A stretch of 64,000 nt of DNA from Spirulinaceae cyanobacterium SM2_1_0 (GTDB lineage Bacteria; Cyanobacteriota; Cyanobacteriia; Cyanobacteriales; Spirulinaceae): NCBI GenBank assembly GCA_012031265.1, contig JAAUTY010000001.1, positions 124,001 through 188,000 of the forward strand. The letters run 5' to 3'. Every line of letters starts with the position of its first letter. The first letter of the stretch is position 1. Below the pieces are notes generated by a model. It made no database searches. It was not told where the DNA came from and worked only from the letters and a program-made list of their open reading frames with translations. The translations under genes and the position numbers were made by a program. This document shows, piece by piece, positions 1 through 63,766 of the stretch.

Positions 1-1560
1 GCCCGCAAACTCGATGGTATGGGCATTCCCTTCATCGAAGGCGGTTGGCCGGGGGCCAATCCCAAAGATGTCCAGTTTTTCTGGAAGCTGCGCGAGGAGC
101 CGTTGCAACAAGCCGAGGTCGTGGCCTTTTGCTCTACCCGCCGTCCCCAGGTCGCGGCGGCTGACGACAAAATGTTGCAGGCGATTCTAGCGGCGAACAC
201 GCGCTGGATCACTCTGTTCGGCAAGTCCTGGGATCTGCACGTGACTGAGGGATTGCAAGCAACGCTCGCAGAAAATTTGGCGATGATCGGCGAGACGATC
301 ACCTATCTGCGCGACCAAGGGCGGCAGATTATTTACGATGCGGAGCACTGGTTCGACGGCTACAAGCAGAATCCTGACTACGCGCTGCAAACGCTGGCAA
401 CCGCGATCGCCGCCGGAGCCGATTGGCTCACCCTCTGCGACACCAATGGCGGCACGCTGCCCCATGAGGTGAGTGAGATTGTGCAAGCGGTGGTGGTGGC
501 CTTTCCAGAATTGACTTCTCCCGATGGGGGGCCGAGGCTGGGCATCCATACCCACAATGATTCTGGGACTGCTGTGGCCAATGCGATCGCCGCCGTTCGC
601 GCTGGTGCCCAGATGGTGCAGGGCACGATCAATGGCTATGGCGAGCGCTGTGGCAATGCCAACCTCTGCACCCTGATCCCCAACTTGCAGCTCAAGCTGG
701 GCTACCAGTGCCTGGCCGAAGCACAATTGACCCACCTCGCCCCCGCCAGCCGGGCGATCAGCGAGATTGTCAATTTAGCGCCCGATGATCACGCCCCTTT
801 CGTCGGCCGCTCGGCCTTCGCCCACAAGGGTGGCATCCACGTCTCGGCGGTCGCTCGCAATCCGCTGACCTACGAGCACATCGAGCCGGAAGCGGTCGGC
901 AACGAACGGCGAATTGTGATCTCTGATCAGTCGGGACTCAGCAATGTGCTGGCGAAGGCGCGCAGCTTTGGCATCGAGTTGGAGCCGGGCGATCCGACCT
1001 GTCGCCAGATTCTGCAACAGCTCAAAGAATTAGAAAGCCAGGGCTACCAGTTTGAAGCGGCGGAAGCCAGCTTTGAATTACTGATGCGGGCGGCGCTCGG
1101 CCGGCGACCAGCCTGGTTCAAGATTGAGGGGTTCCAGGTCACCTGCGACATTTTGCAGACGGCGAATCAAGCGAATAAAAGCGCGCTGGCGACGATCAAA
1201 GTCGAAGTCCGAGGCGAGGAAATGCTGGAGGCGGCTGAGGGCAATGGACCAGTCTCCGCCTTGGATGCCGCACTTCGCAAGGCATTAGTACAGGTCTACC
1301 CGGAAATTGCTGGCTTCCATCTCACCGATTACAAGGTGCGAATTCTCGACGGTCACGAAGGTACCTCAGCGATCACGCGAGTGCTGATCGAATCCAGTGA
1401 CGGTGAGACGCGCTGGACGACCGTGGGGGTGTCGAGCAACATCATTGATGCCTCCTACCAAGCAGTGGTTGAAGGCATTGAGTATGGGCTGCTGCTGCGA
1501 TCGCCCGTGAAACAAGCCGCACATGAATTGCCTCTACCCGCCGTCCGTTCGTCGCGATGA
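1..1560 (+). CDS. cimA: Citramalate synthase (5' end outside window)
   Basis: Member of the LeuA/HMG-CoA-lyase-like family. Citramalate synthase condenses pyruvate with acetyl-CoA to give (R)-citramalate, the threonine-independent entry to isoleucine synthesis. The reading frame is open to base 1, so the start lies upstream; about 519 residues are visible, and the family usually has roughly 530-540. Seen near the left edge is IPFIEGGWPGANPKD, typical of the CimA branch rather than LeuA; the metal-binding GIHTHNDSG and GTINGYGERCGNANL segments follow. The last ~140 residues match the LeuA-type allosteric dimer domain, so isoleucine feedback is likely (inference). The EGGWPGANPKD signature makes CimA much more likely than 2-isopropylmalate synthase. 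Confidence 0.93.
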   Translation, partial: ARKLDGMGIPFIEGGWPGANPKDVQFFWKLREEPLQQAEVVAFCSTRRPQVAAADDKMLQAILAANTRWITLFGKSWDLHVTEGLQATLAENLAMIGETITYLRDQGRQIIYDAEHWFDGYKQNPDYALQTLATAIAAGADWLTLCDTNGGTLPHEVSEIVQAVVVAFPELTSPDGGPRLGIHTHNDSGTAVANAIAAVRAGAQMVQGTINGYGERCGNANLCTLIPNLQLKLGYQCLAEAQLTHLAPASRAISEIVNLAPDDHAPFVGRSAFAHKGGIHVSAVARNPLTYEHIEPEAVGNERRIVISDQSGLSNVLAKARSFGIELEPGDPTCRQILQQLKELESQGYQFEAAEASFELLMRAALGRRPAWFKIEGFQVTCDILQTANQANKSALATIKVEVRGEEMLEAAEGNGPVSALDAALRKALVQVYPEIAGFHLTDYKVRILDGHEGTSAITRVLIESSDGETRWTTVGVSSNIIDASYQAVVEGIEYGLLLRSPVKQAAHELPLPAVRSSR

Positions 1561-2178
1561 AAGGCGGGGACGTTGCGGGTTAGCGGCGCTGTCAAGATGG
1601 ATGGCAACCCCAAATCCTGCGACACGGAATCAGCCGTCAACAAGCGACACATGCAAAGTCTTGCAGCCAGGTTCAAACCATTGGCTGACTGTCGCCTGTT
1701 TGTCCTATGCCAGATTGTCCTCAATTTCAGCCAGAACCGTGAAGAGGAAGTCGATCCCGCTCGCAAGCTGGCGCTTGATCGCTTGGGTCACAGGCAGAAA
1801 GTTACTCAAGCTACTGGTGCTAAGCTTCTCAAAACTAGAAATCATGGGCTTTCAAGGAGTGATGTGTACTCTCGGTGTAATGACAAATTAATGACGTCCT
1901 GATTATAACAGACTGTAAAATCCTGTTTGGCGTGGCCAACTACTAAATTTTGTGGCTCGTGACGGAGCGCCGAGACGGTCAAAGCACCATCAAACCAGGC
2001 TTCGGCAGCACTGGTGTCTACGCCGTCCCCGTAACCTATTTGATAAGAAATAAATGATTTAAATGTTTAAACCATGAGATAGTCTTATTGTTACTAAGAT
2101 TTTTGGGGTTGGGAACTCGGCCTGTTGGCGGTGTAGTTCGCCTCGTCAATGTTGTTTGCTGGAGCAGGAGACAGAGTT
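1561..2178. other. Intergenic region cimA-lemA
   Basis: No convincing full gene. The stretch is more AT-rich near 2040-2110 and probably carries the lemA promoter. A weak stem (TCTTA/TAAGA) followed by five T lies near 2081-2105 and could end cimA transcription. Overlapping open frames on the plus strand show no family resemblance. A 46-codon minus-strand frame is listed separately. Confidence 0.4.
1705..1845 (-). CDS. Small open frame or gene fragment, unknown
   Basis: A 46-residue frame beginning MISSFEKLSTSSLSNFLPV and ending AEIEDNLA. The composition (amphipathic, few rare residues) looks more protein-like than the overlapping frames, but I do not recognise a family. It could be the tail of a decayed gene, since it sits alone in a 600-base spacer with no obvious ribosome binding site. 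Confidence 0.22.
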   Translation of the reverse strand: MISSFEKLSTSSLSNFLPVTQAIKRQLASGIDFLFTVLAEIEDNLA

Positions 2179-13720: not shown

Positions 13721-15001
13721 CTAATTGACCGCAGCGGCATCCGGATTAGATGGCTCCGCATCGCGGGCGGGTGCTTCAGGCTCTGGCTCGGCTTCAGCTT
13801 CGGGGCTATCTGCCGCTTCTGCCTCTGCGTCTGGAGCGTCTTCGGACGAGTCAGCAGTGGGGTCGGCGTCCGTTTCTGATTCAGTGTCGGGGGCAGGTTC
13901 GACCGCTGCCGGGATTGGCGCTTCCGACTCCGGGACGGTGTTGGGCGGGACTGGAGTCACCTCCGCTTGGAGTGCGGCTTCGACGATCTCTAGGTTTTGG
14001 CGGGCGGCTCGATAATCCGAATCCAACGCCAAGGCACGCCGAAACTCCGTCCGCGCTGCCGCCAGATCACCTGCACGGGCGAGCGCTGAGCCGAGATTGT
14101 TGTGACGGATGGCGGTAGGGGCGATCGCCACAGCCCGACGATGAGCCGTGATCGCTGCGTCCAACTCACCGCGAGCCGCTAGGGCGTTGCCGAGGTTGCT
14201 GTAGGCATAGGGATTATCGCGATCCCGTTCCAGCGCTGCTTGATAGGTGCGGGTGGCCGCCGCGAGATCACCCTGAGCGCGGTAGGTCAAGCCGAGATTG
14301 ATATAAGCCTCGATATACTCGGGCTGGTGGTTGATTGCTTGTTGATAGGCGCGCACCGCTTCGTCATGGCGACCCAACTCAGCCAGGGTTAGACCCAAGT
14401 TGTAGTAGCGCACGGCATTCGGTTCAAGCTGAAGGGCACGGGCGTAGGCGGCGACCGCTGCCTCCAAGTCACCGCGATCGCTGAGGGCGTTACCGAGATT
14501 ATTGTGGGCAATCGCATGATCCGGTTCGAGGGCGATCGCCTGCTCGTAACTGGTGATCGCTGCTGCTAGGTCGCCTTGTTGGCGTTGCATGACGCCCAAA
14601 TTGCTATGTGCTGTCGCGAAGCTGGGGTCGAGGCGAGTGGCTTCTTCATAGGCGGCGAGGGCGGCTTTGGCATTGCCCTTAGCTTTGAGGGCATTCCCCA
14701 AGTTGTTGTAGGCGATGGCGCTATTCGGGTCGAGTTCGATTGCAACCCGGTAAGCGGCGATCGCCTCCTCAATACGATCCTGGCTCATCAATGCCAGTCC
14801 GAGGTTAATGCGCGCCGCCACATTCTCTGGTGCCACTTCGATCGCCAACTGCCAGACATTTTCGGCGGTCGTATAGTCACCGGTCGCCTGGGCGTCACGA
14901 CCCCGCTCGAAGAGTTGTTGCAGGTTTTGCGCGACCGCCGCCTGGGGTGTGCCAACGAGCACCAGCAAGAGCAACAAAGCCCCGAAATAACGCTTGCACA
15001 T
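13721..15001 (-). CDS. Exported TPR-repeat protein with acidic tail
   Basis: A 426-residue protein: signal peptide about 1-24 (ALLLLLVLVGTPQAAVAQ), then roughly nine 34-residue TPR units from about 30 to 340 with the usual A-x3-N-L-G-x2-L pattern (for example AIAYNNLGNALKAKGN), then a low-complexity tail of about 80 residues rich in Glu, Asp, Ala and Pro. The tail carries a strong negative charge and is probably disordered. TPR arrays bind partner proteins; the partner here is unknown. The next gene upstream on the same strand is a paralogue starting with the same design, so the two likely arose by tandem duplication. Probably periplasmic or lumenal. Confidence 0.88.
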   Translation of the reverse strand: MCKRYFGALLLLLVLVGTPQAAVAQNLQQLFERGRDAQATGDYTTAENVWQLAIEVAPENVAARINLGLALMSQDRIEEAIAAYRVAIELDPNSAIAYNNLGNALKAKGNAKAALAAYEEATRLDPSFATAHSNLGVMQRQQGDLAAAITSYEQAIALEPDHAIAHNNLGNALSDRGDLEAAVAAYARALQLEPNAVRYYNLGLTLAELGRHDEAVRAYQQAINHQPEYIEAYINLGLTYRAQGDLAAATRTYQAALERDRDNPYAYSNLGNALAARGELDAAITAHRRAVAIAPTAIRHNNLGSALARAGDLAAARTEFRRALALDSDYRAARQNLEIVEAALQAEVTPVPPNTVPESEAPIPAAVEPAPDTESETDADPTADSSEDAPDAEAEAADSPEAEAEPEPEAPARDAEPSNPDAAAVN

Positions 15002-15101
15002 AGAAGGATTGTATACAGAGCAAGGGGTGCGATGGATGGCGGTAGAGCCATTGTCGCTAAACAGCTATTGTAGCGAACGGTTGGGAACCGAGCGGCGATG
15101 A

Positions 15102-16079
15102 CTACGGTGCGGAACGGCGTGGTTGGCGCTGCGACTGTTCCTGTTCGGCGGCGGCGAGGTTGGCGCGGGCGATGTCGTCGGCCGGATTCAGTGCTAGGGC
15201 ACGACGGTAGGCCTCGATCGCCCCCGTGAGATCGCCCTGCGCTTGCAGCACGAGACCCAAATTATTGTAGGGATCCGCATAGTCTGGGTCACGAGCGATC
15301 GCCGCTTGATAGGCGGCGATCGCCGCCGTCAGTTCCCCCTGACTCCAGAGCACAACCCCGAGATCGTTGTAGGCCGTCGCGTAGTCGGGGTCGAGATCTA
15401 GGGCGCGACGGTAAGCGATCACGGCTTCATCCGGACGGTCGGCGGCTTGCAGAGCAACGCCAAGGTTGCGATGCAATACCGGATCGCTTGGCTCGACCGC
15501 GACCGCCTGCCGAAAAACATTGATCGCTGCCGTCAAGTCTCCCTGCTGCTTCAGCACATCGCCTAGGGCGGTGTAGAGCGCCGGATCATCGGGTGCGCGG
15601 GTGATCGCAGCCCGATAGGCCGCACTGGCGGCAGTATATTGTTCCTGCTGCTCACGCGTCAGCCCCAGGGAGTAGTAGGCTGTGGCGTCTTCTGGTTCGA
15701 GCGCAATCACCTGCTCGTAGGCCTGCGCTGCTGCCTCGAGGTCACCCTGCTCTGCGAGTACGCGCCCCAGACTGCGATGCACGGCGGCGATCTCCGGGTG
15801 ACTCGTCGCTGCTGCCTGGAGAATTGCCAGGGCAGCATTAGCATCGCCCTGTTCATAGAGGGACAGGGCCAACCAAACCTGAGCCATCGGATCGGCGGGG
15901 TTGACCGCTGTCGCCTGCTGCCAAATTTCAGCGGCGCGGGCAAAGTCACCCGCTTCATAGGCCTCGCGACCCTGGACAAACAGTTCCTCTAACGATTGCG
16001 CGCTGACCGCTAGCGGCGCGATCGCCACCACCAGACTGAGCACAAAACTGCTGATCGCGCGCTGTGTGGAGATAGCCAT
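15102..16079 (-). CDS. Exported TPR-repeat protein
   Basis: A 325-residue paralogue of the downstream TPR protein: signal peptide about 1-28 (SFVLSLVVAIAPLAVSAQ), SLEELFVQGREAYEAGD matching the opening of its neighbour, then about eight TPR units to residue ~310 (for example AYYSLGLTREQQEQYTAA) and a short basic Gln/Arg tail ending RQPRRSAP. So the two proteins differ mainly in tail charge: acidic in one, basic in the other. The 100-base spacer to the downstream gene allows co-transcription. Function unknown beyond protein binding. Confidence 0.88.
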   Translation of the reverse strand: MAISTQRAISSFVLSLVVAIAPLAVSAQSLEELFVQGREAYEAGDFARAAEIWQQATAVNPADPMAQVWLALSLYEQGDANAALAILQAAATSHPEIAAVHRSLGRVLAEQGDLEAAAQAYEQVIALEPEDATAYYSLGLTREQQEQYTAASAAYRAAITRAPDDPALYTALGDVLKQQGDLTAAINVFRQAVAVEPSDPVLHRNLGVALQAADRPDEAVIAYRRALDLDPDYATAYNDLGVVLWSQGELTAAIAAYQAAIARDPDYADPYNNLGLVLQAQGDLTGAIEAYRRALALNPADDIARANLAAAEQEQSQRQPRRSAP

Positions 16080-31707: not shown

Positions 31708-31868
31708 TACGTAAGATCGCTACGCGAAGTTCTGAGTTTTAGTAGGAGAGGGTTTCAAACCCTCCCGATACTGTGGTTTTGGGGCTCGCAATCCAGATTG
31801 AGTCTGAGTCGCGGCGATCCGGGAATCCTGGGGATTTTCAATGGGACTCTCATTTTCGCCGTCTGGCA
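31708..31868. repeat. Diverged copy of the CTAGTAC-type small repeat, long form
   Basis: Resembles the copies at 49150 and 63663: a left part TCGCTACGCGAAGTTCTGAG and a right part CCGGGAATCCTGGGGATTTT, then TCTCATTTTCGCCGTCTGGC before the gatB stop. Between them is an extra ~70 bases, containing the hairpin GAGGGTTTCAAACCCTC, which recurs inverted near 39537-39606. It fills the spacer between gatB and the DUF3616 gene. Confidence 0.7.
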
Positions 31869-33359
31869 CTAACCCTTGAGCTTTTGGCTCAGCAACTGGT
31901 TGGTCAGTTTCGGGTCGGCGCAGCCGCCGGTTTGCTTCATGATCTGCCCGATGAAGAAGCCTTGCAGCTTGGTTTTGCCGTTGCGAAATTGTTCAACCTT
32001 ATCGGGATTGGCTGCGAGTAGATCATCAATAATTTTCTCGATTGCACCGATGTCCGAGATTTGGATCAAACCCCGGCTCTCGATCAGTTGCTCCACCGAG
32101 TCTACCGGCTGGGTGAGCAACTCCGGCAGGAGTTCCTTAGCGATCTTGCCGCTGATCGTGCCCGCTTCGATCAGGTTGACCAGTTCCGCGAGCCGCGCTG
32201 GTTGTAGGGCGATTTCAGTAATGTCGCGCTTCTCGCTGTTGAGATAGGCGGCAATGTCGCCCATGACCCAGTTGGCGACCTGTTTGGGATGGGTGTCGTT
32301 GGCGATCGCCGCTTCAAAGTACGCGGCTACGGTGCAGTCATCGGTGAGCACCCGCGCATCGTAGGGCGAGAGACCCAGTTCGGTGGCGTAGCGGCGGCGC
32401 TTTTGGGCCGGGAGTTCCGGCAGTTCGGCGTGCCAGCGATCGCGCTGCTCGACACTGACTTCGATCGGCGGCAGATCGGGTTCGGGGAAGTAGCGATAGT
32501 CGCTGGAGCCTTCCTTGACCCGCATACTGATCGTTTTCTGACCGCCTTCGTCCCAGAGGCGCGTCTCTTGCAAAATCGGCTCACCTGCTTCTATTGCCGC
32601 GATCTGGCGCTCGATCTCGAACTCGATCGCCTTTTGGATGGCGCTGAAGGAGTTCATATTCTTGATCTCGACCTTGACGCCGAACTCCTGTTGACCTTCC
32701 GGCCGGACGGAAATGTTGACATCGCAGCGCAATGAGCCTTCTTGCATATTGCCGTCGCTGATGCCGAGGTAGCGCACGATCCGCCGCAGTTCTTGGCCGT
32801 ATTCTGCCGCTTCCGCGCCGGTGCGAATGTCGGGTTCCGAGACGATTTCGAGTAGAGGCACACCGGCGCGGTTGAAGTCCACGAGTGAGTGGGTGGAGCC
32901 AGAGAGGCGATCGCTGCCAGCGTGAACGAGTTTACCAGCATCCTCTTCCATGTGCAGGCGGGTGATGCCGATGGTTTTGCGCTCGATCGTGCCTGTCTTT
33001 TTGTCGTATAGCTCGATTTCCAGGGAGCCATGCTCGGCGATCGGCAGATCGAACTGGGAAATCTGGTAGTTCTTCGGCAGGTCAGGGTAGAAATACTGCT
33101 TGCGATCAAACTTGCTGTAGGGGGCGATCGCGCAGTTCAACGCCAGCCCAGCCTTGACGGCATATTCCAGCACTGTCTCATTCAGCACCGGCAGCACACC
33201 GGGATAGCCGAGGCAAATCGGCGAGATATTGCTGTTGGGCAGCGCTCCGAATTCGGTAGAAATCGGGCTAAAAATTTTGGTCGCCGTATTGAGCTGGCAA
33301 TGGGTTTCCAAGCCAATCACAGCTTCATATTTGGTTTTCGCAGGGGCGGCAGTGCTCAT
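31869..33359 (-). CDS. gatB: Asp/Glu-tRNA amidotransferase subunit B
   Basis: Subunit of GatCAB, which converts Glu-tRNA(Gln) and Asp-tRNA(Asn) to the amidated forms; cyanobacteria lack GlnRS and need it. 496 residues from ATG 33359 (MSTAAPAKTKYEAVIGLETH); an upstream in-frame ATG adds nine residues. Signature segments: YEAVIGLETHCQLNT, QYFYPDLPKNYQISQFD, VDFNRAGVPLLEIVSEPDI, GSLRCDVNISVRP and SDYRYFPEPDLPPI. The C-terminal YqeY-like tail ends GQIMKQTGGCADPKL. gatA and gatC are not in the window. Confidence 0.97.
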   Translation of the reverse strand: MSTAAPAKTKYEAVIGLETHCQLNTATKIFSPISTEFGALPNSNISPICLGYPGVLPVLNETVLEYAVKAGLALNCAIAPYSKFDRKQYFYPDLPKNYQISQFDLPIAEHGSLEIELYDKKTGTIERKTIGITRLHMEEDAGKLVHAGSDRLSGSTHSLVDFNRAGVPLLEIVSEPDIRTGAEAAEYGQELRRIVRYLGISDGNMQEGSLRCDVNISVRPEGQQEFGVKVEIKNMNSFSAIQKAIEFEIERQIAAIEAGEPILQETRLWDEGGQKTISMRVKEGSSDYRYFPEPDLPPIEVSVEQRDRWHAELPELPAQKRRRYATELGLSPYDARVLTDDCTVAAYFEAAIANDTHPKQVANWVMGDIAAYLNSEKRDITEIALQPARLAELVNLIEAGTISGKIAKELLPELLTQPVDSVEQLIESRGLIQISDIGAIEKIIDDLLAANPDKVEQFRNGKTKLQGFFIGQIMKQTGGCADPKLTNQLLSQKLKG

Positions 33360-39412: not shown

Positions 39413-39761
39413 CGCGGTTGCGTCCTTTGCGGTGAGCAAATTTCCGGAAGTCGGTCGTGACTGGCTGTAGGCAGTGATGCCAGTGATCCTGTTGCGCCAG
39501 GCATCTGGAGGTGGCGGCAACTTTTCAGTCGGGTCGTGGTCTTAGACTCAATCTGGATCGTGAACCCCAAAAATTGCCATATCGGGAGAGTTTGAAACCC
39601 TCCTCTACCGCGTATTGCATTTTGGGAACAAAAAATTCGGACTTGGTACTTAGACTGGGGCTGTTGCTTTTAGCCCGACTCTAGATGGCAGTTGCTGCAT
39701 CCAGCCGACCGTCGAACGGCTATGTTACAACAATGGCTAAGGAGTAGCGTTTTAGCGACTG
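39413..39761. other. Spacer with repeat remnant upstream of the HtrA-like gene
   Basis: A 349-base spacer. Its middle is a repeat remnant, listed separately. The last 40 bases contain AAGGAG at 39738-39743, 18 bases before the protease start, which is distant for a ribosome site. No gene seen. Confidence 0.35.
39535..39660. repeat. Inverted, degenerate copy of the 31.7-kb repeat
   Basis: On the minus strand it reads GGAGGGTTTCAAACTCTCCC, then a GGTT-rich segment and ATCCAGATTGAGTCT, matching 31735-31805 on the plus strand over about 70 bases. The outer end AAAAAATTCGG...GGTACTTAG resembles the CTAGTACC end of the family. The other end is lost. Confidence 0.6.
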
Positions 39762-48879: not shown

Positions 48880-49118
48880 CATCCCCCAACCCCTTCTCCC
48901 AAGCGGGGCTACTGTGTATACACAAGTCCTGAAACCCTTGCAATTATTGGGTTTTGCCTTTTTGGCTTCGTTCCTACTTCTACAGCAGGTTTCGGGAGTC
49001 CAAAAACCTTATCCAGCCTGATTCTCACTTGGTTAGGTAGACCACAGTTCGGTCAGTAAGAATCTCAACTTATGTGTACACGGTAGCCCGCTCTGGGAGA
49101 GGGATTTAGGGTGAGGGT
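48880..49118. mobile_element. Small non-autonomous element with long imperfect inverted ends
   Basis: Ends are about 45-50 bases and nearly inverted: 48880-48926 carries CCAACCCCTTCTCCCAAGCG and ends GTGTATACACAAG; 49069-49117 starts CTTATGTGTACACGG and ends GGATTTAGGGTGAGGG. The 240-base total, no coding content, and terminal symmetry are those of a miniature inverted-repeat element. Flanking target duplications are not evident by eye. Confidence 0.65.
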
Positions 49119-49149
49119 TACGAAACTGGGATGCTCCCGGCGCATACGG

Positions 49150-49260
49150 CTAGTACCGCTACGCGGAATTTTGAGTTCTGAGTTTTGAGTGATGAGTGCA
49201 GACAATACAGGCATCCTACGGCTCCTGAATGGGCATCTCATTTCCGCCGCCTTGTACTAG
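49150..49260. repeat. CTAGTAC-type small repeat, copy overlapping the Dam-like gene end
   Basis: Starts CTAGTACCGCTACGCGGAAT and ends CCGCCTTGTACTAG, so the outer 7 bases form exact inverted ends (49150-49156 and 49254-49260). It matches the copy at 63663-63766. The stop codon of the Dam-like gene (49257-49259 on the minus strand) lies in its right end. Confidence 0.75.
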
Positions 49261-63662: not shown

Positions 63663-63766
63663 CTAGTACCGCTACGCGGAATTTTGAGTTCTGGGTTTTG
63701 AGTGCCTGCAATCCGGGAATCCTGGGGATTTTGAATAGGCATCTCATTTCCGCCCTCTTGTACTAG
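63663..63766. repeat. CTAGTAC-type small repeat, short form
   Basis: CTAGTACCGCTACGCGGAAT at 63663 to CTTGTACTAG ending 63766, with exact 7-base inverted ends. Central CAATCCGGGAATCCTGGGGA is shared with the copy at 31708. About 104 bases, no coding potential. It lies between ispD and the Uma2 gene. Confidence 0.78.

Follow-up and report, generated by a model that had tools for sequence, protein, structure and literature searches.

The repeat at 31.7 kb in the window (the whole 64,000-nucleotide stretch of DNA analyzed here) is best explained as a MITE inside a MITE, with two families involved, B inserted in A, and the composite moved afterward; we put the probability of this reading at roughly 85%. 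Family A is a noncoding, CTAG-flanked element of about 111 bp (mostly 97 to 111 bp), and family B is an unrelated palindromic element of about 104 bp. A would be non-autonomous, inserting at CTAG and leaving CTAG on both sides, and the seven-base units just inward of its left terminal repeat would be gained and lost singly. B, a palindromic element of its own family, would likewise be non-autonomous, and its target duplication is three bases long (TNA). A TGA within the heptamers of A would have served as the target, and B would have landed in a heptamer. In some descendants the left arm of B would have been lost up to the foot of the central hairpin, and the composite, with both A ends retained, would have moved to new CTAG sites.

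The nested element at 31.7 kb and its relatives in the window

The repeats below were verified by direct reading of the sequence and by a repeat search of the window.

31711..31872, plus strand: nested element (A carrying a truncated B), with GTAA to its left and CTAA to its right
31711..31741, plus strand: A left end, consisting of the terminal repeat plus roughly two heptamers (TTCTGAG TTTTA); blastn identity of 90% over 21 nt only (30.1 bits)
31742..31804, plus strand: right part of B, left arm missing, beginning with GTAG at the hairpin foot
31748-31764, plus strand: GAGGGTTTCAAACCCTC, within the right part of B
31805..31807, plus strand: TGA at the junction of B and A
31805..31872, plus strand: A right end; identity with the older A subfamily is 85% across 31798-31871
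31869..31871, minus strand: stop codon (TAG) of gatB (GatB_N and GatB_Yqey domains), within the right CTAA site of the nest
39545..39648, minus strand: solitary complete B, 86% identical to the B consensus
49150..49260, plus strand: A without B, young subfamily, 111 bp from CTAG to CTAG
63663..63766, plus strand: A without B, older subfamily, 104 bp (shorter by one heptamer)

The short copies at 49150-49260 and 63663-63766 agree with the nest in its left and right parts; between these, the nest matches the copy at 39545-39648 in inverted orientation. Shared outer parts and a middle unit recurring inverted had been described in a first-pass annotation of this DNA, and direct reading, the repeat search, and blastn all bear that description out; its coordinates stand approximately, with the nest moved from 31708-31868 to 31711-31872 and the inverted copy revised from 39537-39606 to 39545-39648. 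When the family consensuses were compared with the window by blastn, scores reached 192 bits for the short copies and 123 bits for the 39.5-kb copy; within the nest they were 83.3 bits for the right A part, 50.9 for the middle, and 30.1 for the left A part. Because the best score per shuffle ranged from 22.9 to 28.3 bits across 20 dinucleotide shuffles of the window, the left A part taken alone is barely above chance. At the Rfam gathering cut-off, tRNA was the sole match in the window.

The neighbors of the nest, gatB and a DUF3616 gene, are minus-strand genes. We read the GTAA on its left and the CTAA on its right as a decayed CTAG site. The TGA at 31805..31807 would be the expected TNA target copy in an A heptamer, the left-hand copy presumably having been lost. 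With the flanks of the 49150..49260 copy joined, its CTAG supplies the stop for a minus-strand open frame of 383 codons. Another repeat, GGTGAGGGTTACGAAACTGGGATGCTCCC, lies beside this copy at 49090-49145, and similar words occur at two further loci (L044 and L051). Elsewhere in the window, a 42-nt sequence is directly repeated five times at 14523-15429, in part at a spacing of 102 bp, and looks like a repeat protein gene.

Family A: ends, lengths, and surroundings

The first-pass annotation had suspected a dispersed high-copy repeat and a likely mobile element. Both hold, although with two elements in place of one. Genome-wide, the A left-end pattern (at most one mismatch) was found at 279 places in the 5.03-Mb genome, compared with 4 for the reversed-pattern control, and the B right-end pattern (at most three mismatches) at 33 places, compared with 0. 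A second A left-end pattern gave 258 matches (control, 1). In separate searches in which the best 40 of 187, 333, and 69 candidates were scored, there were at least 42 matches for the long form, 44 for the short form, and 43 for B. Plasmid records yielded one 37-nt match for A and none for B.

Both ends of A carry the imperfect terminal inverted repeat CTAGTAC-N6-GCGGAA. We sampled copies from stretches totaling 537,338 bases including overlaps, most of which had been chosen for matching A or B; a script called 152 A rows there, 142 of them with a right end (4 of the 142 are overlapping calls of one place, and 136 right flanks are distinct). Measured from CTAG to CTAG, 94 of these rows are 111 bp long, 22 are 104 bp, and 7 are 97 bp. 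CTAG stands on both flanks in 115 of the 142 rows; the others are mostly one base off on one side, and a single locus (L423) has TTAG on both sides. In nine rows the right CTAG doubles as the left end of another element, as a target duplication predicts, giving arrays in which the CTAG is not doubled. CTAG is palindromic and nearly invariant, and a TA duplication within it, or a CTAG-specific enzyme acting without duplication, would leave the same sequence as a duplicated CTAG target. Among the loci sampled, a search with 48 A copies found no clean unoccupied site.

Two further repeats share this arrangement. A third CTAG-ended family, CTAGTACAACACGGCGTCAATAACG ... CGCCCTCTACTAG, has a length of at least about 117 bp and is joined to A through one CTAG in several loci (L047, where it starts at 1390 on the minus strand; L081, L012, L024, and others). 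At L045, a 90-bp CTAG-ended element (1607-1696) lies between two A copies, with all CTAGs shared.

The lengths of A step by seven because a run of GAGTTYT-like heptamers sits just inside its left end. Among rows of 80 to 130 bp in this genome, 125 of 128 have a length of 6 modulo 7, and slippage would be the source of heptamer gain and loss.

A copies are rare within reading frames. We took 101 copies with CTAG on both sides and at least 400 bp of flank and joined their flanks at one CTAG; 12 of these sites fell inside frames of at least 150 codons, compared with 261 of 461 other CTAGs (p 2e-17) and 175 of 254 random positions (p 1e-23). Outside such frames, the CTAG ended an open frame 100 or more codons long at 27 of 89 A sites versus 26 of 200 control CTAGs (p 0.0008), but the frames are naive ORFs and the control CTAGs may include old or decayed elements, so this enrichment is the weaker result. 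CTAG holds TAG on both strands, and for that reason an insertion at a CTAG stop codon restores the stop. Selection would explain this placement of copies, in intergenic DNA and on stop codons.

Elements of this type occur well beyond this genome. The pattern CTAGTACCGCTRCGCGGAA matched in at least 87 stretches of named genomes, and the 80 stretches listed are all cyanobacterial except one (L359) in a MAG labeled Lachnospiraceae, which has an A-type left end and no right end and would reflect chance or contamination. The genera listed include Nostoc, Calothrix, Symploca, Richelia, Oscillatoria, Nodosilinea, Leptolyngbya, Pleurocapsa, Tolypothrix, and Cyanosarcina. At the 80 listed loci, 50 of the 82 A-type left ends have a right end within 320 bp. 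In a separate set the A pattern matched in 26 of 99 genomes, a count that overstates A since the single matches in four genomes (G023, G050, G072, and G090) are one conserved coding-looking sequence and others look like chance.

The seven-base phase extends in part to these relatives. Twenty-nine of the 50 A-type pairs in other named genomes have a length of 6 modulo 7, where chance would give one in seven and related copies are not independent, and a period-7 tract follows 38 of the 82 A-type left ends, compared with 3 of 400 positions drawn at random from these loci. This phase does not hold everywhere, since lengths of 97, 104, and 112 are seen in one genome (G001) and mostly 112 to 113 in two others (G043 and G083). 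The heptamer units also vary across genera (AGTCAAA, AATTAAA, AATTCAA, and TTTTGAG). A might be the local branch of one old cyanobacterial CTAG-targeting superfamily with the heptamer tract as part of its machinery, the spacing being kept while the units differ by genus, and with a mobilizing protein that perhaps reads the tract or its phase; we hold this extension to be doubtful. Heptamer arrays are not generally parts of A: by eye, an A-type end lay beside just 1 of 30 loci with CAAMAGT arrays, drawn from the 75 genomes with a match.

Family B and the composites

B has terminal inverted repeats of its own, TACCCAGTCCG and TACTAAATCCG, and its right-end pattern was absent from the 98 other genomes, leaving this genome as the one positive of 99. 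At most B loci inspected, a solitary B is surrounded by unrelated flanks. The B alignment holds 34 distinct rows, 22 of them full length at our cut (score of at least 150). Identical flanking triplets in direct orientation occur in 9 of the 22 (six TGA and three TCA) and are missing from the other 13. With a looser cut of 33 rows, TNA stands on both sides in 14, and the middle base agrees in 10 of these (permutation p 0.008); the ten include one truncated copy. B generates 3-bp TNA target duplications. In a genome of the same family (G001), a B-like element flanked on each side by TCA interrupts the reading frame of a transposase (L179). GTAG precedes the B hairpin, but full B reaches about 40 bp further left; by eye, at least 7 of the 12 incomplete rows, the window copy included, start within about 6 bases of this GTAG.

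Two other loci carry B-like sequence. In G001, an insertion sequence (IS) with a 456-aa transposase lies within a B-like element (L171). We rejected this gene as the parent of B: the ends of the IS, GGTGTGAACTTAAG, are its own, and a 10-bp direct repeat flanks it, which indicates that it jumped into the B-like element. In another genus (L270, genome G054, 2500-2560), an A-type left end is followed directly by TCATATCAAATCCGG, and no second end was found; TCATATCAAATCCGG is possibly a B-like end in a heptamer tract, that is, nesting of the same kind.

B lies within A at four loci, namely the window and contigs C75, C92, and C36, always in the same orientation. In three of the composites B precedes the same last part of A, and in C36 two more heptamer-like units follow it. 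TGA stands on both sides of B in C36, and C92 has the mismatched triplets GAG and TAA. The left arm of B is kept in C92, lost in the window and C75, and partly lost in C36, and several changes in B are common to C75 and C92. Since three of the four share the same B site and the outer flanks of all four differ, B probably inserted into A once, after which the nest would have moved as a unit by way of the A ends. The three composites at the same site could also be separate insertions into a hot spot.

Mobilizing enzymes, rival explanations, and known systems

The first-pass annotation had raised the prospect of a transposase gene with these ends. None owning A or B ends was found at loci of the five transposase families searched (DDE_5, DDE_3, DDE_Tnp_1, DDE_Tnp_4, and Y1); IS3, IS110, IS66, IS256, ISL3, IS1182, and others were left out of this search, and two loci (L197 and L198) were scanned without the B ends. 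This genome has four DDE_3 matches, one DDE_5 match, one weak DDE_Tnp_1 match, two Y1 matches, and no DDE_Tnp_4 match. No locus of an IS701-type (DDE_5), IS630-type (DDE_3), IS4/IS5-type (DDE_Tnp_1), or PIF-like (DDE_Tnp_4) parent had A or B ends of its own. At two near candidates (L153 and L168), A copies lie within the flank of the transposase match. The weak DDE_Tnp_1 match adjoins an A copy at contig C119 (L168, ORF 1441-1776, minus strand) and is an IS982-family relic (NCBIfam E 8e-21; 74.7 bits, below the cut-off of 130).

Other genomes gave the same result. No resident IS with A or B ends was present in 40 stretches of 10 other genomes, and no convincing pair of A ends stood at IS distance in those stretches (25 unpaired left ends) or at the 80 named loci (82 left ends); the distant A-end pairs seen in other genera are weak matches or joins of different elements. 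Nor did 30 Y1 loci from 20 genomes, of 144 matches, have paired A or B ends. The Y1 loci covered one of the two matches in this genome (L216) and left out the other (contig C99). L216 (G000:C32, match at 364-711 of the contig) holds a 161-aa RAYT-like Y1 gene amid many copies of the palindromes AACCCGTTTCAACGGGTT, CCTGGGATTTGAATCCCAGG, and AAGCCTGCTCAAGCAGGCT and looks like a REP-RAYT locus. DDE-type transposases acting in trans would be the mobilizers of A and B.

The first-pass annotation had put the long and short forms in one family, in which the short copies could be internal deletions of an ancestral long form. The two forms do share their ends, and truncations near the hairpin foot do happen within B. 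The middle of the long form, however, is the right part of a separate element that also exists by itself, bearing terminal repeats of its own and TNA triplets; other genera have A-type elements, whereas the B end is confined to 1 of 99 genomes; the composites carry B in the heptamers of A, with TGA on both sides in C36; and most A copies, near-identical young ones included, lack B. We regard deletion from a single family as very unlikely indeed and the long form as the product of an insertion.

We consider two other explanations improbable. The repeats might be kept for an RNA function (at 3' ends, as terminators, or in transcript stability) and not be selfish DNA, in line with the placement of A outside frames and at stops and with the fold of the B consensus, which runs end to end and far exceeds shuffled sequence (RNA z -5.6, DNA z -3.6). 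The A consensus, though, folds no better than shuffles (z -1.05). Young A copies, 96 to 100% identical among the 40 best scored, look like recent spread, selection against insertions would itself predict the avoidance of genes, and the use of naive ORFs and possibly decayed control sites weakens the enrichment at stops. Alternatively, REP-type palindromes may be moved by a RAYT (a single-strand Y1 enzyme), with CTAG as a cleavage tetranucleotide that is not duplicated and the GTAG hairpin of B as a REP. The GTAG before the B hairpin, the starts of incomplete B rows near it, an A left end that can be drawn as a CCGC-TAC-GCGG hairpin, and the two Y1 matches, one of them the 161-aa gene, would all suit such a mechanism. 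Direct TNA triplets nonetheless flank B, the palindromes around L216 are other than A or B, and the 30 Y1 loci, which give no support to a Y1 or RAYT parent, yield no A-end pair and one single A-like end with one mismatch (L220).

Among known systems, the IS5 family offers the nearest target preferences: its IS5 group targets 4-bp YTAR and its IS1031 group 3-bp TNA, in size and sequence a fit for A (CTAG) and B (TNA). Unlike in that family, no IS5-type transposase with A or B ends was found here, where the one weak DDE_Tnp_1 match is the IS982 relic and DDE_Tnp_4 is missing, and enzymes of the IS5 and IS1031 groups as movers of A and B are a guess by analogy. Nezha is reportedly an active miniature element with a TA target duplication, which by description sets it apart from B, with TNA, and from A, between CTAGs. 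STRRs are heptamer repeats of cyanobacteria, and Elhai et al. (2008) are said to have described small dispersed repeats nested in heptamers or minitransposons in Nostoc. Such heptamer arrays and nested small elements resemble the nest of A and B, yet the CAAMAGT loci mentioned above had an A-type end in just one case.

In Anabaena sp. 90, none of the 147 type II MITEs has a matching IS; they are 77 to 541 bp long and mostly intergenic (PMC3542288). By description they are like A and B in being cyanobacterial and multi-copy and in lacking an IS with the same ends. Porphyromonas gingivalis, of a different phylum, has a MITE that contains a minisatellite (PMC4596501) and is likewise similar by description to A, in having a tandem repeat inside a miniature element. 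TAACTGA is a cyanobacterial heptamer repeat (PMC4679880). Nezha is cited as a cyanobacterial MITE in PMC3733652, which also treats REPs, RAYTs, and their TIR-flanked relatives, and MITEs are reviewed in PMC10969869. An exact-word literature search with parts of the A ends and AGTCAAA heptamers found no cyanobacterial repeat paper among the titles listed (20 of 34, 12 of 12, and 9 of 9). Families A and B and the seven-base length lock may be the new parts of this work, and we make no claim that A is unpublished.

In themselves, MITEs and nested insertions are commonplace. The interest here lies in more than 250 copies of A for which no partner was found in the five transposase families searched, in one end structure across many cyanobacterial genera, in a length largely locked to seven-base steps, and in the neat accommodation with genes that a restored stop codon allows. 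The nest also carries a caution, that length variants of repeats need not be deletions. If the mobilizing enzyme is found, these families would be well suited to testing how elements of such small size can spread when no parent is resident.
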